The position numbers were made by a program, and so were the translations under genes. From NCBI GenBank assembly GCA_947645355.1, contig CANSCI010000004.1, positions 1 through 64,000 of the forward strand: a stretch of 64,000 nucleotides of DNA, written 5' to 3'. Below, in pieces: positions 7,555 through 19,410 of this stretch (the first letter of the stretch is position 1; every line of letters begins with the position of its first letter). The notes beneath the pieces are model-generated. The model worked only from the letters and a program-made list of their open reading frames with translations. It did not search any database and was not told the DNA's origin. The DNA is from an uncultured Dorea sp. Lineage in GTDB: Bacteria; Bacillota; Clostridia; Lachnospirales; Lachnospiraceae.

Positions 7555-8607
7555 ATGCGGGTTAACAGTCAGACATCGGCATTGCCGATCTTGTCTTCGC
7601 CGCAGGCCTCTGCATCTTCGAAAGCCGCGTCCCCGGGAGCACAGCCTTCAAGTACAGAGAAACTTATGAACGAATTAAAAAACAAATACCAGCATATTCA
7701 TTTTGATTTTATATCCTTTGAAAATGATGACCAGCTCAAACAATATGTTTCTTCCAAACGTGGACTGAACAATGTGGCCATTGACCCGGCTCTTCTGGAA
7801 AAAATGGCAAATGACGACACTGTCCGGACCCGGGTGGAAAGCGTCCTGAGCATGCTTAACAATTACCGGTTTTCTTCCCAGGTACAGGCTCAGCTTATGG
7901 ATAAGAGACTGACCGGCATGGGACTGGTGCTGGACGCTGACGGCGACGTATCCAAATGGACGGTCATGGAAGAGACCGAAAAGCCTTTTTATTATTCAAC
8001 CCTCAACCAGGATGACCACAGATGGAGCCAGTTCTACCAGAAGCGGAAAAACCCGAAAATGACTACGTACAAATACTCTCACAGCCGGAGCATGGCAAGC
8101 CTCGCAAGCGCTAAGAGCGTTTCATCCGTAAGAGGGCTGATCGCGTCCAAGAACCGGGAGATCCAAACGGTAAAGCTTCGGGTGTCTGACCCGGCAGAAG
8201 CCGCATCCATCATCCGGCAGATCCGGTCTGTCATCCGAAACGGCAACATTAAGATCGCCAGGCTCCACAAGGAGGAGAGGCTCTATCAGGAACAGAAAAT
8301 AGCCGCAAAAAAAATGAAGGTCAAGCTGGAAAAGCAGCTCGCAGAAGAACTGAGGAGAAAACGGACTGCACGCAAAGCGCAGGAACGCTGCCAGACAGCC
8401 TGCATGGAAGATATATTCAGCAAACCTTCTGTAAATGATTACCGCTACAAAGAGATCTGCGAACAATATGCAGAGACTATGTCCGGCCTGACAGGCGCCG
8501 CCCCGGGAACTTCCGCGGCAGGCACCCCCGCTGTCTCAGCAGAGGCTGCCGCTTCGGCCGTACAGATAACGGTCACCTCTGTGGCCAGCATCGACTGCTC
8601 TGCATAA
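7555..8607 (+). CDS. Uncharacterised protein next to FliD-like gene (possibly DUF6033)
   Basis: A 350-residue soluble protein with no signal peptide or membrane segment. The first ~30 residues are Ser/Ala/Pro-rich and probably disordered. Residues 40-160 form a folded domain (HIHFDFISFENDDQLKQYV, then VSKWTVMEETEKPFYYS). Residues 205-290 are a long Lys/Arg/Glu-rich helix (EERLYQEQKIAAKKMKVKLEKQ) likely to be coiled coil. The tail is Ala/Thr-rich. I recall similar Lachnospiraceae proteins under DUF6033 but could not check. A strong AAAGGAG ribosome site sets the start. It precedes the FliD-like gene, so a role with that surface system is plausible. Confidence 0.6.
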   Translation: MRVNSQTSALPILSSPQASASSKAASPGAQPSSTEKLMNELKNKYQHIHFDFISFENDDQLKQYVSSKRGLNNVAIDPALLEKMANDDTVRTRVESVLSMLNNYRFSSQVQAQLMDKRLTGMGLVLDADGDVSKWTVMEETEKPFYYSTLNQDDHRWSQFYQKRKNPKMTTYKYSHSRSMASLASAKSVSSVRGLIASKNREIQTVKLRVSDPAEAASIIRQIRSVIRNGNIKIARLHKEERLYQEQKIAAKKMKVKLEKQLAEELRRKRTARKAQERCQTACMEDIFSKPSVNDYRYKEICEQYAETMSGLTGAAPGTSAAGTPAVSAEAAASAVQITVTSVASIDCSA

Positions 8608-8720
8608 CCATTAAAAATATATTCCTAAACTATTTCCGGCAGCCGCTTAATATTTATGTCCGAATGGTCGAAAAACTATATGAGGATTTATAAATATTAC
8701 TCAGGAAAGGAGGAGAAACT

Positions 8721-10001
8721 ATGGCAATCAACGGAATTAATTCTTACGGTATGGGATATTATAACTATCAATCCTCGATCAATAATATCCGACTTGCTCA
8801 GGCTTTATCCAAAAATACGAGATATATGCAGTCTGCTGCATCGGTAAACGCACCGGTGACAGGACCTCTGAAGTCAAGTATGACCTTTATGAGGCAGTAC
8901 AACTCCAGCATGTCCGACCTGATGAGCGCAGCAAACTCACTGAAGGGAAGCAACAGTTCAGGGATTATCAGCAATCTGTCTGTATCAAGCTCTAACGAAG
9001 CTGTGGCAACTGCCACAAAGAAATTCGGGCTCAGCCAGGCAAAAGACATTACTCTGGATGTTACTCAGCTTGCACAGGCACAGACAAATGTAAGTGCCGG
9101 CGTAAAAGGCTCAGATGCTGCAGCATCCGACATGAACTTCACAGTCGGGAACGGTATCAAGTCTGTAAGCGTTAATGTAAGTGCACTCAACAGTGACGGC
9201 ACTTCCAAGACAAACGTTCAGATGCTCAGGGAGGCGGCAGATCAGATCAATGGAGGCTCCGCTAATGTACGGGCAACTCTCGTTCAGAAGGACGGCGTTG
9301 CTTCTCTGGAATTAACCGGAACATATACCGGAGCTTACAATGGCTTCGAAGTTAGCGGCGAACTTGGGGCTGCCAAGGGTCTGGACACTGTCAAGACCGA
9401 GGCTGCCGATTCCAAATATTCGGTAACGATAGACGGAAAGACAACCAAGTATGAGTCCTACAGCAATGATATCTCTGTTGATTCTACCAGAATCGGTGTT
9501 TCGCTCAAGAGCACAGGCAAGACTACCATCAGCGCAGGGCTTGATTTCAAGAAAACGGCAGACGGCATCAGCAATCTGGTTGACGCGTATAATTCGTCAT
9601 TAAAGCTTCTTAATGACAATTATGACCGCGGAACCGGTGTCGATAAGCAGCTCCGCAATCTTGTTGCAGGACTTGGCTCTGAAAAGTCCCTGAAAGAGCT
9701 CGGAATTACCGTAAACAAAGACGCGACTTTGAAGTTTGACAAGAGTGTCCTTGAAAAGAACATGAAGAAAAGTCCTTCCTTAACGAGGGATCTGATCTCA
9801 AGCGTTGCAAACAAGGCATTCAACAAAGGGTCTGCTGGTATGCGCGTAAATTCCAGTACATTGATCAACAACGATATAGAGGCTGCTCAGGCAGATGCTA
9901 TGAGCAATCCGTATCAGGCGTTCAATATGTACTCAAAGACAGGCGCTTATACACTGAACAATTATTATGCACTCGGCATGATGATGAATTATCTGGTATA
10001 G
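8721..10001 (+). CDS. FliD-like flagellar hook-associated / filament-cap protein
   Basis: A 426-residue protein. The N-terminus has the FliD-like layout of a short helix-forming lead (residues ~50-75) followed by LSVSSSNEAVATATKKFGL and ALDVTQLAQAQTN-type strands. The middle is beta-rich. The C-terminal FliD domain is recognisable: GISNLVDAYNSSLKLLNDNY, then SLKELGITVNKDATLKFDKSVLEKNM. FliD caps the growing flagellar filament and is secreted by the flagellar export apparatus, so no signal peptide is expected and none is seen. No flagellin, hook, basal-body or export gene is in the window. The gene is short of the usual C-terminal coiled coil and ends in a hydrophobic YYALGMMMNYLV. An orphan or repurposed cap is possible. 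Confidence 0.68.
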   Translation: MAINGINSYGMGYYNYQSSINNIRLAQALSKNTRYMQSAASVNAPVTGPLKSSMTFMRQYNSSMSDLMSAANSLKGSNSSGIISNLSVSSSNEAVATATKKFGLSQAKDITLDVTQLAQAQTNVSAGVKGSDAAASDMNFTVGNGIKSVSVNVSALNSDGTSKTNVQMLREAADQINGGSANVRATLVQKDGVASLELTGTYTGAYNGFEVSGELGAAKGLDTVKTEAADSKYSVTIDGKTTKYESYSNDISVDSTRIGVSLKSTGKTTISAGLDFKKTADGISNLVDAYNSSLKLLNDNYDRGTGVDKQLRNLVAGLGSEKSLKELGITVNKDATLKFDKSVLEKNMKKSPSLTRDLISSVANKAFNKGSAGMRVNSSTLINNDIEAAQADAMSNPYQAFNMYSKTGAYTLNNYYALGMMMNYLV

Positions 10002-11361: not shown

Positions 11362-11390
11362 TTGTCAGATATTATTATATGTCGTATAAT
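11362..11390 (+). promoter_or_regulatory. Sigma-70-type promoter of the XpaC-VWA-TelA operon
   Basis: TTGTCA and a perfect TATAAT separated by 17 bases, 38 bases before the first gene of the operon (11429). No competing start signal lies between. The rest of the 225-base divergent gap (11204-11428) is AT-rich; a TGTTATGAT on the minus strand near 11236 could serve the ECF gene. Confidence 0.7.
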
Positions 11391-11428
11391 GTAAAATAAC
11401 GAATATACTTTAGGCAGGAGGAGATAAA

Positions 11429-12160
11429 TTGAAAAAATACATAAAATTAATTGCCGCCAATCTGTGCATCGTGATCACGGCAGTGATTCTGTATTCACCG
11501 GGGCTTGTATGCCTCAGGATCTCGGATTACAGTATATTCCGGGCCGGGATGTCCATCATTGCCGCTCTTGCACTGATCGCAGCTTTCTTCCTGGTCAACC
11601 TCAGGCTCCTTAAGGACCCCGACCGAAAGCCTGTGACACTTCAGGATGTCCCGGACCTTGACAGAGCCAAGGATATCCTGAGAAGGCACTGGGACAGCAA
11701 ATATTTTGGCAGAATGGCAAAAACCGCTTCTGAACAGCTTGACCGGATCTTAAAATGCCGCCTGCGTCTGTCAGACATCCTGGAACAAAAATTCACAAAA
11801 GGAACCATGAGCTTCGACAAGTTCAACAGTGTGGTTGAAGCTGCTGAAGCCTCCGCTATAAAAAACGTTGTTGCGATGGCAAACCGAATACGGCTTTTTG
11901 ACGAAAAGGAATATGCAAGGCTGCAGCACTACCGCGAGGACGACATCCCCGACGACATCCAGGAGGAACAGCTGAAGCTGTATCAGAAGAATTTGGACAA
12001 TGTCAGATCAACGATCTCTCTCAACGAAAAGATCCTGTTAAAGCTGGATGCACTGGCTATGGAAATCTCCTCTTCTGCCTCAGGCGAGGACACAGAACTC
12101 AACAACGATCTGTTAAATGAGATCAGCCGTCTCATAGACGAAACTAAATATTATCAGTAA
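11429..12160 (+). CDS. XpaC-like membrane protein
   Basis: A 243-residue protein with two N-terminal membrane helices (about residues 7-27 and 38-60) and a cytoplasmic helical domain. It resembles the XpaC family (5-bromo-4-chloroindolyl phosphate hydrolysis protein, a historical name that does not prove phosphatase activity). In many Firmicutes, xpaC-like genes sit beside telA, as here. The TTG start at 11429 has an ideal GGAGGAGATAAA leader. It is the first gene of a three-gene operon with 20- and 13-base gaps. The family's molecular role is unknown. Confidence 0.7.
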   Translation: MKKYIKLIAANLCIVITAVILYSPGLVCLRISDYSIFRAGMSIIAALALIAAFFLVNLRLLKDPDRKPVTLQDVPDLDRAKDILRRHWDSKYFGRMAKTASEQLDRILKCRLRLSDILEQKFTKGTMSFDKFNSVVEAAEASAIKNVVAMANRIRLFDEKEYARLQHYREDDIPDDIQEEQLKLYQKNLDNVRSTISLNEKILLKLDALAMEISSSASGEDTELNNDLLNEISRLIDETKYYQ

Positions 12161-12180
12161 ACTTACCGGAGGAACAAGCT

Positions 12181-13866
12181 ATGAACAAAAAAACTATGGG
12201 AATACTGGCCGGCATTATCGTCATTGTATGTGCCGCCGTATTCGGAGGAATCTATGCAACACGCAATATCGGCAAATCAGAACGGGTCATCTCGGAAGAA
12301 AATGCTGAGAAACGCCTGGCCAAAATGGTAGATGTCATCAATCCCGGCACCGGTACTCCCGTCAAATCACCGATCGAATATGACTCCTTCGAGGATGAAG
12401 CGGCGGAACTCCCGGAGATCGACACTTGTCCGGTAGAGGTAGAGGCAGGCACCCAACTGTATGCCGAGATCTTCTCCTCCCCGGAAAAAGCTGGTTCCGG
12501 CACCGACGGATGGCTCTGCGAAATGGCCAGAGAATTCAACAGCAAAGGATATCAGGTTGACGGACAGAATGTATCCGTCCAGGTGCGGAAGGTCAACAGC
12601 GGACAGGCCCTCGACTATATTGCTTCCGGCAAAGCCGTGCCGGAAGGCTTTGCACCTTCCAGTATGCTCTGGGTAAACATGCTCAACGCAAAAGGCGTCT
12701 CCACAGAGACCATAGCCGAGAGCCTGGTGGGCAATGTGGCCGGTATCCTGCTCTCCCCTGAGACTTATGACCAGATCGTAGGAAAATACGGCGCCGTAGA
12801 CCTGAAAGCAATTACAGAGGCCACAGAGGCCGGTGAACTGGCAATGGGTTATACCAATCCTTTTGCCAGCAGCGCAGGACTTAATTTCCTCATCTGCACC
12901 CTCGAGAGGTATGACCTGCAGAATCCATTGTCCGAGACGGCTGCGGCAGGATTTCAGAAATTCCAGAAAAACGTTCCTTTTGTAGCCCTGACTACCATGC
13001 AGATGCGCGAGGCAGCAGAAAATGGTTCTCTGGACGGGTTCATCATGGAATATCAGTCCTATGTAAACGACACGGTACTGTCCAAAAATTACAAGTTTAC
13101 CCCCTACGGCTATCGTCACGATAATCCTCTGGTGACTGTAGAATCCGCCAGTCCACAGCAAAAAGAGATCTTAAATCTTTTTGCACAGTATTGTACCACA
13201 GAGAAAGCCTCCGCCAGAGCCGGCGAATATGGCTTCAACGGCATGAGTGATTATGTCTGTGAATATGAAGCTGTTCCCGGAGAGGTTCTCACAGCAGCCC
13301 AGAAGCTGTATAAAACCAACAAAGACAATGGCCGCCCGGTCATCGGTGTATTTGTCACAGACGTGTCTGGAAGCATGAACGGCGAGCCTTTGATCGCCCT
13401 TCAGACCTCCCTGATTAACAGTATGAAATATATCAATGCCGAGAATCTCATCGGGCTTGTGAGTTATTCCGACCGGGTAACCATAGAGCTTCCGATCCAA
13501 AAATTTGATATGGAACAGCAGACCTACTTTAAAGGAACTGTAGAAAACTTAAGCGCTATGGGCGGAACCGCCACCTTTGATGCAATCTGCGTCGCACTGA
13601 ATATGATTAACGAAAAAATGGAAGAATATCCGGATGCAAAGCCGATGCTGTTCGTCCTAAGCGACGGAGAAACCAACTCGGGCTATGGCCTTAATGATAT
13701 CCGGGATGTACTGGGCGGGCTTAAAGTCCCCGTATACACCATAGGCTACAACGCCGATCTGTCGGCGCTCCAGAGCATCAGTTCCATCAACGAGGCAGCA
13801 AGCATCGACGCATCTACCGATGACGTTATTTACCAGCTTAAGACACTGTTTAACGCAAATATGTAA
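12181..13866 (+). CDS. Membrane-anchored solute-binding-like / VWA domain protein
   Basis: A 561-residue protein. Residues 7-27 are an uncleaved-looking membrane anchor (GILAGIIVIVCAAVFGGIYA), so the rest is outside the cell. Residues ~75-370 resemble a type-2 periplasmic binding fold (EMAREFNSKGYQVDG, then MAMGYTNPFASSAGLNFL). Residues ~388-561 are a von Willebrand A domain with an intact metal-ion-dependent adhesion site: DVSGSMN, the Thr of GGTATFD, and LSDGETN. VWA domains with this site bind a divalent metal and a protein partner. The combination suggests an extracytoplasmic sensor or assembly scaffold for the XpaC/TelA partners. Function is inferred only. Confidence 0.8.
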   Translation: MNKKTMGILAGIIVIVCAAVFGGIYATRNIGKSERVISEENAEKRLAKMVDVINPGTGTPVKSPIEYDSFEDEAAELPEIDTCPVEVEAGTQLYAEIFSSPEKAGSGTDGWLCEMAREFNSKGYQVDGQNVSVQVRKVNSGQALDYIASGKAVPEGFAPSSMLWVNMLNAKGVSTETIAESLVGNVAGILLSPETYDQIVGKYGAVDLKAITEATEAGELAMGYTNPFASSAGLNFLICTLERYDLQNPLSETAAAGFQKFQKNVPFVALTTMQMREAAENGSLDGFIMEYQSYVNDTVLSKNYKFTPYGYRHDNPLVTVESASPQQKEILNLFAQYCTTEKASARAGEYGFNGMSDYVCEYEAVPGEVLTAAQKLYKTNKDNGRPVIGVFVTDVSGSMNGEPLIALQTSLINSMKYINAENLIGLVSYSDRVTIELPIQKFDMEQQTYFKGTVENLSAMGGTATFDAICVALNMINEKMEEYPDAKPMLFVLSDGETNSGYGLNDIRDVLGGLKVPVYTIGYNADLSALQSISSINEAASIDASTDDVIYQLKTLFNANM

Positions 13867-13879
13867 GAGGAGAACGCTT

Positions 13880-15022
13880 ATGAGTGGATTTACATTGGAT
13901 TTACCTAATACAGATGAGATTAAGAAAGAAGTGGCCGCAGAACTGGCTCCGACCGTCGAGGAAAAGACGGTCATAACAAATGCGGTTCAGGACAAAGCCG
14001 ACCAGATTATGGCCGTAGACCTTAATTCCCTTGCACAGCGCCGGGAATTTATCCAGGTAGTTGAAACCTTCGGCGCAGAGATCGTAAAGCAGTCCCAGTC
14101 TAAAAACAACATTCTTCAAAAACGCATGGGTGAATTCAGCCGTGCCGGAGGAGAATCCGGAGAGGTTGCAAAGGGATTGGAAGACCTGTCAATCAAAATG
14201 CGGGATTTGGATCCGTCCGGGCTGGATTTTACCAAGACCGGAGTCCTCGGAAAGGTATTCAACCCTATCCGCCGGTATTTTGAACGGTTTAAAACTGCCG
14301 ATGCAGAGATTGCCGGCATTGTAAAAAGCCTGGAAAAAGGGCGATCTATCCTAAAAAACGACAATACAACGCTGGAAATCGAACAGGCTTCCATGCGGGA
14401 CCTGACCAAACAGCTGACACAGAAAATCGAACTCGGCACACAGCTTGACAGCTACCTGGCAAACGCAGTGGAAAACGCCAGGATTTCCGGGGATTCCGAA
14501 GAACGTATCAAATTCGTGGAGGAAGAGATCCTATTCCCGCTCAGGCAGCGTCTCATGGATTTCCAGCAGCTTCTCGTCGTGAACCAGCAAGGTATCATTG
14601 CCATGGAAGTGATACGAAAAAACAATCTGGAACTGATCCGGGCAGTAGACCGCGCACAGACTGTAACCGTCGCTGCACTGCGGGTAGCCGTTACTGTTGC
14701 AGGCGCGCTGTATAACCAGAAGATCGTCCTTGAGAAGGTACAGATGTTAAATGAAACGACAAATACCATGATAAGCGCCACCTCTAAAATGCTGAAAGAG
14801 CAGGGAACTGCCGTCCAGAGGGAAGCCGTGGAGGCCAGCATATCTCCCGACACCTTAAAGCAGGCCTTTGCCGACACTCTTTCTGCGCTGGATGATATCA
14901 GCATATACAAGGAAAAAGCACTGCCCCAGATGGCACAAACCATCCAGGATTTCCGGATGATCGCAGAGGAGGGGGAGCGTCAGCTTACCAAAATGGAAAA
15001 AGGAAAAGCATTGGAATTTTAG
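13880..15022 (+). CDS. TelA-like toxic anion resistance family protein
   Basis: A 380-residue, almost wholly helical cytoplasmic protein. The ATG at 13880, after a GAGGAGAAC ribosome site, replaces the longer ORF start. Family signatures are FNPIRRYFERFKTAD, the long helices LQKRMGEFSRAG and NNTTLEIEQASMRDL, and the late VAALRVAVTVAGALYNQKIVLEKV. Named for tellurite resistance, the family is widespread and its normal role is thought to be in envelope stress. It ends the XpaC-VWA-TelA operon; close spacing of all three genes suggests one complex. Confidence 0.85.
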   Translation: MSGFTLDLPNTDEIKKEVAAELAPTVEEKTVITNAVQDKADQIMAVDLNSLAQRREFIQVVETFGAEIVKQSQSKNNILQKRMGEFSRAGGESGEVAKGLEDLSIKMRDLDPSGLDFTKTGVLGKVFNPIRRYFERFKTADAEIAGIVKSLEKGRSILKNDNTTLEIEQASMRDLTKQLTQKIELGTQLDSYLANAVENARISGDSEERIKFVEEEILFPLRQRLMDFQQLLVVNQQGIIAMEVIRKNNLELIRAVDRAQTVTVAALRVAVTVAGALYNQKIVLEKVQMLNETTNTMISATSKMLKEQGTAVQREAVEASISPDTLKQAFADTLSALDDISIYKEKALPQMAQTIQDFRMIAEEGERQLTKMEKGKALEF

Positions 15023-15057: not shown

Positions 15058-15089
15058 GAGCCGGGAACCTGTTTTCAGGTCCCCGGCTC
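15058..15089 (+). terminator. Hairpin after TelA gene
   Basis: A 14-base inverted repeat (GAGCCGGGAACCTG / CAGGTCCCCGGCTC) with a TTTT loop, 36 bases after the TelA stop. No strong T-run follows, so it is a likely but not ideal terminator. It lies between convergent genes. Confidence 0.55.
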
Positions 15090-15154: not shown

Positions 15155-17263
15155 TTAATACGGACGCGGATGCCTCCGGACAAGTCTGATGACATTCAGC
15201 TGCTGCTTTCTCTCCAGAGCAATCATAACTGCCAGGAAACATAAAGCTATTGCTGTATAGAAGCCTACAGGAGCAATATCACCTGTGCGCAGCGCGTTGC
15301 TCCGCGCTTGGTTCGACGCACCGCTGCCGGTACTTAAGTTAGTTCCCGAAGCAGTTCCTCCTGCTGTTGTACCTCCGGTTGAAGTATTTCCGCCTGCTGC
15401 GGCTCTTCCGGTATTTGTATTATTACCGCCTGCAGAACTGCCGGTGCCCGTATTGCCGCCTGCTGCGGGAGTATTGTTATTATTGTTGCTGCCGTTATTA
15501 TTGTTATTATTGTTATTATCGTTATTATTGTTATTGTCGTCTGATTTTTCAGTGTCTCCGTAAACCAGTGCATACGTGGAAAAGCGATCCGTATCTATGG
15601 TAATTGTATCCTCATTATCATCAATGTCATATAACACAGTGGCTTCTTTATCATGCACCCGGATCATCCGGAACGTTCTTTCCTTGGTATCATCTGTATT
15701 TTTCAGATCGGCCGGTATCTGGATTACGAGCCGGATGCTTCCTCCCGGCACTTCCTCGACCTGATAGGTATCTGCCCCGATAATCTTGGCCAGACTGATA
15801 TCAAAGTATTCTCCCACCTGATAGCCGTCGAGTTTTTCCTCGATCAACTCTTTATCCTTCTCACTTACAGTGTCTTTTGCATTCTCCACTGTAAGACGTA
15901 TTGTGATGTCCGCGCCTTTCTCTGCCATCTCCCTCTCTGAAGCTGTCAGGACAACGCTTTGCAGACCCTCTGTCGATGTAGCAATACTGATACTTGGAAC
16001 TTCGCCTTTTTTGTTGACTTCCTTATCGATGACGCCCGGGTTTACAATGACCGGAATCTCCTCTGTACGCGTCACATAACCGCACACACGGCACTTATAG
16101 GTCATAAGTCCGGTCTCGGTCTCTGTCGGCTCCTCCGTCACTGTCCCGCCGTCTTCCTCATGCTCTGCTTCGTTTGCCTTAGTTCCGCAGGCCTCGCACT
16201 CACGCCAATGGTTCTTGTCATCCGTCTGCCATTCCTGTTTATAGTCATGGGCAGCAGAGGTCGCAGAAAATTGTGTCATATAACATGCATAATCCTTCCA
16301 CTGGCTCTCTGCCTTGTATACATCAATGCTGTCTCCGGGTACAACAAGCCCCCGCCTGCCATCAATCATAAACTTGCAGCTGTCAAACATCCCTGCTGAA
16401 ATCAGCGGGGGTGTCTTCCCTCGCAGATACACCGCATCAATTCCCTCGCACTGTTCAAATGCCGCCCCCGGGATCTCTGTGACACTTTCCTTAATCTCGA
16501 CTGTTTTCACACGGGCTCTCTCGTCCTCTGTGGCATTATTGCTCCAGTCATGCATTCCGTCCTGGCTGGATATCGTCAGACGTCCTGCGCTGTCCAGTGA
16601 CCAGTCCTGCCAGGAAGCATATGCGATCTTCACCGAAGTAATCAGCGCTGAAAAATCAAATTCTGTATTGCCCTTATCCGAAGTCACCCACCTTTGAAAG
16701 ACATAGCCTGATTTCGTGGGAGAGGCCGGCTCCGGCAATACTGAATTCTCCCTGTAATATGCAGAACTAAGCAGCCGATCCCCGTCTACAAAATAGCACC
16801 CATAGCGGTCCGCAGTAAAGGTAGCATCCGTCGTCCCAGAAACAGACATTGAAGAGGCCAGATTTTCACCGGTAAACCGATAGATAAAATTCGTGATATT
16901 TTTCGGTACGGCAACCGTATACCTTACCGTCACATAGCCGTCGGTATCCCAGACAGATTCATCGCACTCCTTACTGTTGGAATTAAACGACGTTGTGGTG
17001 CCGTCAATCTGCAGGATCAAGTTATTGGCGCCCATATAAGCCCTCGCCGCTCTTTTCGCATTATCGCCAAAAGCTGTGTCACCGACAAACCGAACCTCCA
17101 TTGTCACAGTTTTCGTGTCGTCCTCTGCCAGAACCTTCAGCGCTCCCATTCCCTCAGCCAGCCCCACAAGAAGCGCGGCTGAACAGAACACGGCGACAGC
17201 TTTCTTTAACCAGTTCTTCTTCAACCGGTCTTTTTTTCTTTTTGGATTCCTTGTTTTCAACAT
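15155..17263 (-). CDS. Cell-surface protein with InlB-like repeat and sortase-like C-terminus (paralogue 1)
   Basis: A 702-residue secreted protein. It has a signal peptide (hydrophobic AVAVFCSAALLVGLAEG, cleavage near residue 46), a KSGYVFQRWVT segment like an InlB B-repeat near 190, and a BspA-like stretch (VTEIPGAAFEQCEGIDAVYLRG) near 255-275. A His/Cys segment (EWQTDDKNHWRECEACG ... HEEDGG ... YKCRVCGY) lies near 345-400. Two Pro/Val-rich beta regions follow, then an Asn- and Gly/Thr-rich low-complexity linker (~570-640). The end reads ALRTGD, a hydrophobic helix and a basic tail, which is the order of a sortase signal but with a non-standard motif. It is 29 bases downstream of a paralogue with the same plan. 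Confidence 0.78.
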   Translation of the reverse strand: MLKTRNPKRKKDRLKKNWLKKAVAVFCSAALLVGLAEGMGALKVLAEDDTKTVTMEVRFVGDTAFGDNAKRAARAYMGANNLILQIDGTTTSFNSNSKECDESVWDTDGYVTVRYTVAVPKNITNFIYRFTGENLASSMSVSGTTDATFTADRYGCYFVDGDRLLSSAYYRENSVLPEPASPTKSGYVFQRWVTSDKGNTEFDFSALITSVKIAYASWQDWSLDSAGRLTISSQDGMHDWSNNATEDERARVKTVEIKESVTEIPGAAFEQCEGIDAVYLRGKTPPLISAGMFDSCKFMIDGRRGLVVPGDSIDVYKAESQWKDYACYMTQFSATSAAHDYKQEWQTDDKNHWRECEACGTKANEAEHEEDGGTVTEEPTETETGLMTYKCRVCGYVTRTEEIPVIVNPGVIDKEVNKKGEVPSISIATSTEGLQSVVLTASEREMAEKGADITIRLTVENAKDTVSEKDKELIEEKLDGYQVGEYFDISLAKIIGADTYQVEEVPGGSIRLVIQIPADLKNTDDTKERTFRMIRVHDKEATVLYDIDDNEDTITIDTDRFSTYALVYGDTEKSDDNNNNNDNNNNNNNNGSNNNNNTPAAGGNTGTGSSAGGNNTNTGRAAAGGNTSTGGTTAGGTASGTNLSTGSGASNQARSNALRTGDIAPVGFYTAIALCFLAVMIALERKQQLNVIRLVRRHPRPY
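15471..15543. repeat. Trinucleotide microsatellite encoding poly-Asn
   Basis: An array of GTT and ATT triplets on the plus strand, read as AAC/AAT (Asn) in the minus-strand surface protein gene. It encodes the NNNN tracts of the wall-spanning linker. Slippage here would change linker length by whole codons without breaking the frame. Confidence 0.8.
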
Positions 17264-17292
17264 AAGTCCCCCATTTCACACTTAACATATCC

Positions 17293-19410
17293 TTAATATG
17301 GCCGCGGCATCCTCCGGACAAGCCTGATACCATTCAACTGCTGCTTTCTCTCAAGCACGATCATGATCCCTAAGAAACACAGGGCGATCATGGTATAGAA
17401 CCCTACCGGAGCGATATCACCGGTCCTTAAGGCATTGCCTCTTGTCTGATTAGATATCCCGGTGTTCGTAGTTCCAGCAGTTCCAGTAGTTCCTGCAGCA
17501 GTGCTCCCGGCAGCGGGATTGGTCCCTGTACCCGTCGTTCCGCCCGCAGCAGTTCTTGTGTTGGTATTTCCGGTATTTGTACTTCCGCCCGTGTTATTCC
17601 CGGTGTTTGTACTCCCGCCTGTATTAGTGTTTCCGGGGGGTGTATTATTGTTGTTATTGTTATTATCATCACCAGGTGTATTGTTATCATCGGTATCTGT
17701 TCTTTCAACATCCTGATATGCCAGAGCATATGTAGAAAAACGATCCGTCTCTATCGTTACCGTATTCTCGTTATCATCCATATCTTCCAGGGCCTTCGCT
17801 GTTCCGTCATGCACCCTGATGACCTTGAATTTTCTCACTTTAGTCGGATCCGTATTCTTGAGGTTATCCGGAACCTGGAACACAAGCTGGACACTGCCGT
17901 TCGGCATTTTCACAACCTGAATCTCGTCGGCTCCGATCTTCTTCAGCATACTGATGTCAAGGTACTTCCCTACTTTATACCCGTCAAGCCTGGCATCGAT
18001 CAGTTCTTTATCCTCATCACTTACACTGTCGTCTGCATTCTTCACAGTTACACGAATCGTAACAGCAGCGCCGTTCTCTGCCTTCTCCATCTCCTCCTCT
18101 GTCAGAGCCGCCTCACCCAGGGTCTCTGCAGAGGTAACGACATCTGTCCTTGGAACCTCACCTACGGTTCTCACCTCTTTGTCAATATCTGCGGAAGGTG
18201 TGATAACAGGGATCGCTTCTGTCCGCATCTCATAAGCACACACGCTGCAGCGGTATGTCATAACTCCTTCCTGTGTCTCTGTGGGCTGCTGGGTCACTGT
18301 CCCGCCATCCTCGGTATGAGCCGCCGAATCTGTCTTGATTCCGCATGCGGCACACTCACGCCAGTGTTCTTTATCGTCAGATTCCCAGTCGCTTCCGTAA
18401 TCATGGGCATCCTCTGCTGCCGAAGACTCTGTAATATAGCATGCATACCCCGGCCACTCTGTCTTATATGTATCGGCGCCGCCGGCTGGAACACGGATCC
18501 CCCTCTTCCCATCACGTATGAATTTACAATCATCGAAGGTTGTATTACCGATTCTCGGTGCTGTTCCTAACACATACACGTTCTCGAGATCAGTGCAATT
18601 CCGAAAGGCATCCGCAGGAATCTCTGTTATACTAGGGTGAACCACAACACTCTTCACTTTATCCGCATTGGACGCCACCCCATTTGTACTCCAGTCATTC
18701 ATCCCGTCCTGGCTCGAAATTGTCAAATTGCCGGTAGAATCAATCGACCAGTCCTGCCAGGAGGCATAGATCTTTGTCACACCTCTAATTTTTTGATTAA
18801 AATCAAAACTTTGATCACCGTCTTTCGCCGTAACCCATCCTTTAAATACATAACCGGATTTGTAAGGGTCCGGCTGCTTTTTCACCATTTGATCCCTCAA
18901 CAGATATTGAGAGCTCAAAAGGTTATCGCCATCTAAAAAATAACACCCATAACGTTGACTGCTTAAGTTCAGTATATGACTTTCCTGATTGAACTGCTGA
19001 TGTTCAATATTCTCATCACTACACTTATAAGTGAAGTTTTTTATATTCTGTGGTACCGTAAAAGTATATCTCAGCATCACATAACGACTGGACTCCAACG
19101 CACTATCATCGCAATGTTTATTCGTGCTGGTATATATTGTACCGGTATAACTGTCTGTCAGAGTCATATCATTCGCATCCATAAAAGCATTTGCCGCTTT
19201 TCTTGCATCTTCAGCATAATTTTTATCACATAGGAAATCATAACCTACAAGCATTTCTTTCGTATCCCCTGCCGCCCGCACACTAAGCGAATCAGCCCCT
19301 TCGGCAAGCCCCACAAGAAGCGCCGCCGAACACAGAGCGGCAGCGGCTTTCTTCAACCATTTTTCCTTCCTTCTCTTCAATTTCCTTTCTCTCAACCGGA
19401 TTCTTTTCAA
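17293..19410 (-). CDS. Cell-surface protein with InlB-like repeat and sortase-like C-terminus (paralogue 2)
   Basis: A 705-residue secreted protein collinear with the downstream paralogue: signal peptide (AAAALCSAALLVGLAEG), KSGYVFKGWVTAKDG (InlB-like), BspA-like FRNCTDLENVYVLGT, the HWRECAACG ... YRCSVCAYE His/Cys segment, beta region, Asn and Thr-Gly-Gly-Ser linker, then ALRTGD, a hydrophobic helix and basic RRMPRPY. It starts with TTG after GGGGGACTCAAA; the sister gene has GGGGGACTTATG at the same place, which supports both starts. The pair is a tandem duplication that has since diverged. An attachment or carbohydrate-binding role is plausible; no enzyme motif is seen. Confidence 0.78.
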   Translation of the reverse strand: MKRIRLRERKLKRRKEKWLKKAAAALCSAALLVGLAEGADSLSVRAAGDTKEMLVGYDFLCDKNYAEDARKAANAFMDANDMTLTDSYTGTIYTSTNKHCDDSALESSRYVMLRYTFTVPQNIKNFTYKCSDENIEHQQFNQESHILNLSSQRYGCYFLDGDNLLSSQYLLRDQMVKKQPDPYKSGYVFKGWVTAKDGDQSFDFNQKIRGVTKIYASWQDWSIDSTGNLTISSQDGMNDWSTNGVASNADKVKSVVVHPSITEIPADAFRNCTDLENVYVLGTAPRIGNTTFDDCKFIRDGKRGIRVPAGGADTYKTEWPGYACYITESSAAEDAHDYGSDWESDDKEHWRECAACGIKTDSAAHTEDGGTVTQQPTETQEGVMTYRCSVCAYEMRTEAIPVITPSADIDKEVRTVGEVPRTDVVTSAETLGEAALTEEEMEKAENGAAVTIRVTVKNADDSVSDEDKELIDARLDGYKVGKYLDISMLKKIGADEIQVVKMPNGSVQLVFQVPDNLKNTDPTKVRKFKVIRVHDGTAKALEDMDDNENTVTIETDRFSTYALAYQDVERTDTDDNNTPGDDNNNNNNNTPPGNTNTGGSTNTGNNTGGSTNTGNTNTRTAAGGTTGTGTNPAAGSTAAGTTGTAGTTNTGISNQTRGNALRTGDIAPVGFYTMIALCFLGIMIVLERKQQLNGIRLVRRMPRPY
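17560..17697. repeat. Low-complexity repeats encoding Asn and Gly-Ser-Thr-Asn-Thr-Gly linker
   Basis: Two repeat types lie side by side inside the surface protein gene. At 17560-17640 imperfect ~30-base units encode NTGGSTNTGNN-type repeats. At 17640-17697 GTT/ATT triplets encode Asn runs. Both form the linker before the sortase-like signal. The repeats differ in length from those of the sister gene. Confidence 0.7.

Follow-up and report, generated by a model that had tools for sequence, protein, structure and literature searches.

A conserved gene pair for a two-helix membrane protein and an SBP-VWA protein, with optional TelA, as a possible envelope-stress module

Overview

Three closely spaced genes form an operon in the window, by which is meant the whole 64,000-nucleotide stretch of DNA analysed here, from an uncultured Dorea species. 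The conserved unit within it is a pair of genes, one for a two-helix membrane protein and one for a protein that joins a solute-binding protein (SBP) domain to a VWA domain; that these two are almost always found together, in bacteria and in some archaea, is well supported. The pair suggests an undescribed system that senses or handles damage to the cell envelope. The operon as a whole may be a transmembrane envelope-stress module, with the SBP-VWA protein as outer receptor, a membrane coupler, and TelA or PspA as exchangeable output, a reading that we favour tentatively and regard as not quite probable.

Organization of the operon

Gene 1 (11429-12160, + strand; 243 aa, TTG start) encodes a two-helix membrane protein with a helical bundle, gene 2 (12181-13866, +; 561 aa) the SBP-VWA protein, and gene 3 (13880-15022, +; 380 aa) a TelA protein of a diverged, operon-specific clade. 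The genes share one strand, are separated by gaps of 20 bases (gene 1 to gene 2) and 13 bases (gene 2 to telA), and are each preceded by a ribosome-binding site, which for gene 1 is an AGGAGG read directly at 11416-11421 (+). For telA the ATG at 13880, with its ribosome-binding site, was taken as the start and is preferable to position 13820, which the mechanical list of open reading frames gives. A predicted sigma-70-type promoter, TTGTCA-17-TATAAT (11362-11390, +), matches the consensus at 11 of 12 positions and is the top scorer among 7 sites in the region, where 5.4 would be expected by chance. The first-pass annotation had described a three-gene operon with these gaps under a single good promoter; the coordinates, spacing, three ribosome-binding sites and rank of the promoter all agree with it, operon membership being judged from spacing. 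A strong hairpin without a long T run lies 3' of telA (15058-15089, +; -26.2 kcal/mol, z -5.63) and is a possible terminator.

The neighbouring genes are unrelated to the operon: on its 5' side stand genes for a kinase-like P-loop protein and a component of an ECF transporter, and on its 3' side genes for two surface proteins that contain repeats, with no MoxR-type AAA+ ATPase gene beside the VWA gene and no TerC or TerD gene among the flanking genes scanned. The surface-type proteins (15158-19410, - strand) are similar to each other, arranged in tandem and 700 aa long; they carry a Listeria-Bacteroides repeat as well as a low-complexity tail of Asn, Thr and Gly. Further upstream, a DUF6033 gene and a FliD-N-like gene that scored slightly below the cut-off (7555-9998) suggest a flagellar neighbourhood.

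The SBP-VWA protein

The product of gene 2 begins with a hydrophobic helix (residues 3-27; 12187-12261, +), a membrane anchor that is present in the structure model (pLDDT 88.4), which was built from 73 sequences. It is followed by a solute-binding domain (residues 105-352; 12493-13236, +) that matches SBP_bac_11 (PF13531, E=4e-11) and, by Foldseek, the structures of ModA-like, sulfate-, thiamine- and ferric-binding proteins (TMt 0.61-0.69). The top match is a molybdate-type binding domain (4kd5), and thiamine-, iron- and dinucleotide-binding proteins are nearly as good structural matches as the ModA-like ones. The VWA domain (residues 390-538; 13348-13794, +) matches PF00092 (E=3e-14) and the VWA structures of ITIH proteins and integrins. 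It carries a complete metal site (MIDAS), with the motif DVSGS at D394-S398 (13360-13374, +), T463 at 13567-13569 and D495 at 13663-13665; across the 73 sequences D394, S396, S398 and D495 are invariant and T463 is conserved in at least 90%. The SBP half is likewise strongly conserved in these sequences, with many invariant positions, and its pocket-like residues are kept. These results bear out the earlier description of the middle protein as membrane-anchored, with an apparent solute-binding fold joined to a VWA domain whose metal site is complete; structure prediction of the 561-residue protein, in which the lack of a binding-protein fold had been named as a way to refute the proposed envelope complex, gave a periplasmic-binding fold in agreement with the Pfam match.

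A subgroup of relatives has a clear lipobox (LTGC, LAGC and similar) in place of the helix, a strict rule recognising it in 13 of 80 among the matches listed. Because relatives carry such lipoprotein signals, the SBP-VWA protein is placed on the outer side of the membrane, and the gene 2 protein is thus predicted to be membrane-anchored and to face outwards.

The protein shares its fold and its conserved pocket-like segments with the ModA-like solute-binding proteins of ABC transporters, but is fused to a VWA domain. Permease and ATPase genes are absent next to the window operon, so that gene 2 does not have the context of an ABC-transporter component, and in only a few relatives do ABC ATPase genes occur within a few kb, at scattered positions. 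A VWA domain with an intact metal site is also a feature of the MoxR-vWA ternary systems; the VWA domain of the window differs in its predicted extracytoplasmic location and in having no MoxR ATPase encoded beside it.

The two-helix partner

The model of the gene 1 protein (pLDDT 90.3) has helices at residues 2-22 and 36-61 that form a transmembrane hairpin, followed by a helical bundle, and both termini of the hairpin protein are predicted to lie inside. This N-terminal hairpin with a helical cytosolic domain is the layout of XpaC, the name given to gene 1 in the first-pass annotation, but in a predicted structure a shared layout would be no proof of kinship. PF10112 (XpaC) gave no match to the window protein or to any of its 15 orthologues, 16 members in all, although the same Pfam model recognised a positive control, the genuine XpaC of locus L167, at E=5e-34. 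Profiles of genuine XpaC proteins, built from XpaC-TelA pairs elsewhere in the same genomes, aligned with gene 1 in hhalign at probabilities of 1.8% and 4.5%, and with a profile that included compact two-helix XpaCs the hydrophobic hairpin alone aligned (66%). A search of the gene 1 model against the PDB found no fold match, no hit having an E-value below 0.69. Membership of gene 1 in the XpaC family was rejected on the Pfam result and the three profile comparisons, and the name appears to fit the layout of gene 1 and not its kinship. The gene 1 protein also evolves fast, with a median identity of 29% as against 51% for SBP-VWA.

Conservation of the gene pair

Full-length SBP-VWA proteins were found in 17 of 200 genomes of the family. 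A profile recognised a gene 1 homologue directly upstream in 15 of the 16 relatives, and in the sixteenth this place is taken by the gene for a protein of 187 aa whose N-terminus includes a hydrophobic stretch. Among the 200 genomes a strong gene 1 match without SBP-VWA was met once (G146), which on follow-up was set aside as an orphan case, and the co-occurrence of the two genes is significant at p=9e-18. The database survey gave 80 loci among the matches listed, ranked by similarity, and 71 of the 78 with enough upstream DNA have gene 1 upstream of SBP-VWA. The seven remaining loci include L104, from an Atopobiaceae genome, in which SBP-VWA is duplicated in tandem behind gene 1 inside the operon (L104:7660-11192), and L102 and L117, where unlabelled genes with hydrophobic N-termini precede SBP-VWA. 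In a sample drawn from across the class gene 1 is present at 14 of 16 loci, and at L215 the ORF picker did not resolve it. The hosts range over Paenibacillus, Cohnella, Bacillus, Enterococcus, Ruminococcus, Atopobiaceae and Methanotrichaceae. Distance correlations (r=0.88 between gene 1 and SBP-VWA, 0.76-0.77 with TelA) ignore species kinship and are not counted as evidence.

No conserved fourth gene was found downstream, where two-component and ABC genes are the commonest neighbours, at scattered positions. A small gene for a helical-looking protein of about 140-180 aa often stands directly before gene 1 (L039, L041, L108, L118, L121, L128, L133, L216 and L217), mostly in the lipoprotein subgroup, and is a possible fourth component. 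At two loci that lack TelA, a sigma-70-type gene directly follows SBP-VWA, recognised by Pfam in one (L114:7474-8070) and by the appearance of its sequence in the other (L037:8636-9226).

Recruitment of TelA

Gene 3 belongs to the TelA family (PF05816, E=1.5e-67; 228.5 bits against a curated cut-off of 30). TelA adjoins 43 of 76 database loci among the matches listed, a set biased to near relatives, and five genomes have the gene pair and no TelA anywhere. The survey of gene neighbourhoods that had been proposed earlier is divided in its result, with a near-universal pairing of gene 1 and SBP-VWA and with TelA next to only 2 of 16 class-wide loci. TelA is not an obligatory part of the SBP-VWA unit; since most loci of the class-wide sample, and five complete genomes with the pair, lack it, the output of the unit may need neither TelA nor PspA. 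In several Paenibacillaceae, the TelA of the operon is the sole TelA of the genome.

Within the family sample, TelA of the operon type occurs only with SBP-VWA (6 versus 0, p=1.5e-7). In the TelA tree the downstream operon TelAs (29 rows, two displaced ones included) form a clade apart from the ordinary TelAs, and where telA precedes gene 1 (L042, L102, L120, L124 and L130) its product falls, with the TelAs of the sister operon described below, on the ordinary side. A further TelA (G189) that lies outside the operon clade was followed up and rejected as an orphan case. The separation of the downstream TelAs from the upstream-placed and sister-operon TelAs argues that TelA joined SBP-VWA more than once, at least twice independently and in different gene orders, the exact number being unsure because some long branches meet in the tree.

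Two TelA-like fragments were also noted. In Bacillus sp. FJAT-27225 telA is succeeded by a tubulin/FtsZ-like gene (L155:2703-3812; PF00091, 2e-14), beyond which lies a TelA-like fragment, and the genome of the window itself has a short C-terminal TelA piece elsewhere (G000 C84:9918-10061), probably a remnant or a contig-edge fragment.

PspA substitution and a sister operon

In three Lachnospiraceae loci among the matches listed, all related to one another, a PspA/IM30 gene (E 2e-40 to 3e-36) directly follows SBP-VWA in the place of TelA (L110:9488-10183, L111:6616-7305 and L122:9579-10256). The window operon has no PspA/IM30 gene, and a survey of PSP systems mentions neither VWA nor TelA (PMC11237479).

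A second arrangement, termed the type II operon, is found in seven Lachnospiraceae genomes (L166, L167 and L198-L202), with the order SBP-VWA lipoprotein, genuine XpaC (PF10112), membrane-anchored SBP-type protein and TelA. Six of these genomes have the TelA gene, which is broken in one of the six, and the SBP-type protein, which has no Pfam match, was recognised in six of the seven. The SBP-VWA proteins of the two operons are distantly related yet homologous over both domains (98.8%, E=5e-17), and the SBP half also has a relative in the extra SBP-type protein (97.1%). The type II operon has the SBP-VWA fusion, a two-helix protein and TelA in common with the window operon, and differs in gene order, in its genuine XpaC, in the extra SBP-type protein and in a TelA of the ordinary clade. 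The PspA substitution and this sister operon support the idea of a role in the envelope.

A possible mechanism

The known xpaC-telA (yaaN) pair of envelope-stress genes (PF10112 and PF05816) likewise sets TelA beside a membrane protein that has two helices and a helical part in the cytosol; it differs from the window operon, where no homology of gene 1 to XpaC is detectable, the SBP-VWA gene intervenes and TelA is of a separate clade. In several relatives an ordinary pair is present elsewhere in the genome as well. The ordinary pair belongs to the sigma-W regulon in B. subtilis (PMC3498285), is induced as llmg_1115/1116 by overproduction of membrane proteins in L. lactis (PMC3139573), and has its xpaC under LiaR in E. 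faecium (PMC10269926); a Listeria telA mutant is cited as more sensitive to nisin (as reported in PMC12791056). The link of the window operon to envelope stress is borrowed by analogy from these pairs, and the PspA substitution points in the same direction as their regulons.

In the preferred reading, a transmembrane helix, or in some relatives a lipid, would anchor the SBP-VWA protein to the cytoplasmic membrane on its outer face. What the SBP cleft and the metal-dependent VWA site recognise there may be a small ligand, a peptide that has become exposed or a component of the envelope that is damaged. The hairpin protein would be the constant partner and would relay the receptor's state to the inside by way of its helical bundle in the cytosol, which in turn may recruit or control a membrane-associated helical protein of the cytosol, namely TelA here and PspA in a few relatives, and this protein would stabilise or reshape the membrane. 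Of the envelope complex originally proposed, with ligand sensing by the outer protein and signalling to XpaC and TelA inside, the partnership of an outer SBP-VWA with inner helical proteins has gained from the near-universal pairing, the independent joining of TelA, the sister XpaC-TelA operon and the PspA substitution; the identity of gene 1 as XpaC and an obligatory TelA have fallen away. We infer the sensing and the inward signalling, and the physical complex, its ligand, the protective output and any phenotype are likewise put forward conditionally.

Alternative explanations

The same genes could encode an envelope chaperone or assembly module, unlikely as we think this, in which the VWA domain captures exposed peptides, the SBP half has a structural role or binds peptides as a second lobe, and the protein, together with the hairpin protein, assembles or guards an envelope complex with no inward signal. 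VWA domains of MoxR-vWA systems have been proposed as peptide captors (PMC7159879), the metal site is strictly conserved, and the gene pair often lacks an adjoining output gene; the immediate neighbours, however, include no MoxR ATPase gene, and a cytosolic output is suggested by the fact that TelA or PspA was added repeatedly. An oxyanion function, with the ModA-like half binding tellurite-like or other oxyanions and TelA giving resistance, is decidedly improbable. The molybdate-type best match, the naming of TelA for toxic-anion resistance, and the tellurite sensitivity that accompanied loss of the orf53-telABC locus in L. cremoris (PMC13109727) speak for it, but the near-equal matches to other binding proteins, the scarcity of TelA across the class, the ill-suited PspA in its slot and the missing ABC genes speak against it.

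An anti-phage or conflict system seems very improbable. Its distribution would fit, being patchy and with movement between phyla that includes archaea, as would distant SBP-VWA relatives on cyanobacterial plasmids (L161-L163; about 32% identity), which lie near genes for membrane proteins and for SPFH/prohibitin, CHAT or caspase proteins, and the proposal that TelA and TerF-vWA form sub-membrane barriers (PMC7824862). Membership in a defence system was nevertheless rejected, as PADLOC gave no credible match and no relatives were found among 50,697 phage records, and no nuclease- or toxin-like effector gene lies directly beside the window operon. That the genes are chance neighbours under one promoter is barely credible: TelA is present at part of the loci only, as this would predict, but the pair persists in hosts as far apart as Lachnospiraceae, Paenibacillus, Atopobiaceae and Methanotrichaceae, with the co-occurrence given above, and this reading is already contradicted.

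Implications

TelA and XpaC are common stress-induced proteins without a known mechanism. A conserved outward-facing receptor whose gene is linked with that of TelA, in the sister operon with that of genuine XpaC, and at a few loci with that of PspA, offers a testable route to the role of TelA, and the link suggests related membrane jobs for TelA and PspA. The wider proposition, that SBP-VWA and its two-helix partner are a widespread, undescribed envelope-stress receptor of bacteria and some archaea with TelA and PspA as interchangeable cytosolic outputs, is rather unlikely as a whole. If it were true, TelA would gain a function: it would protect the membrane much as PspA does, and would do so under control from outside.
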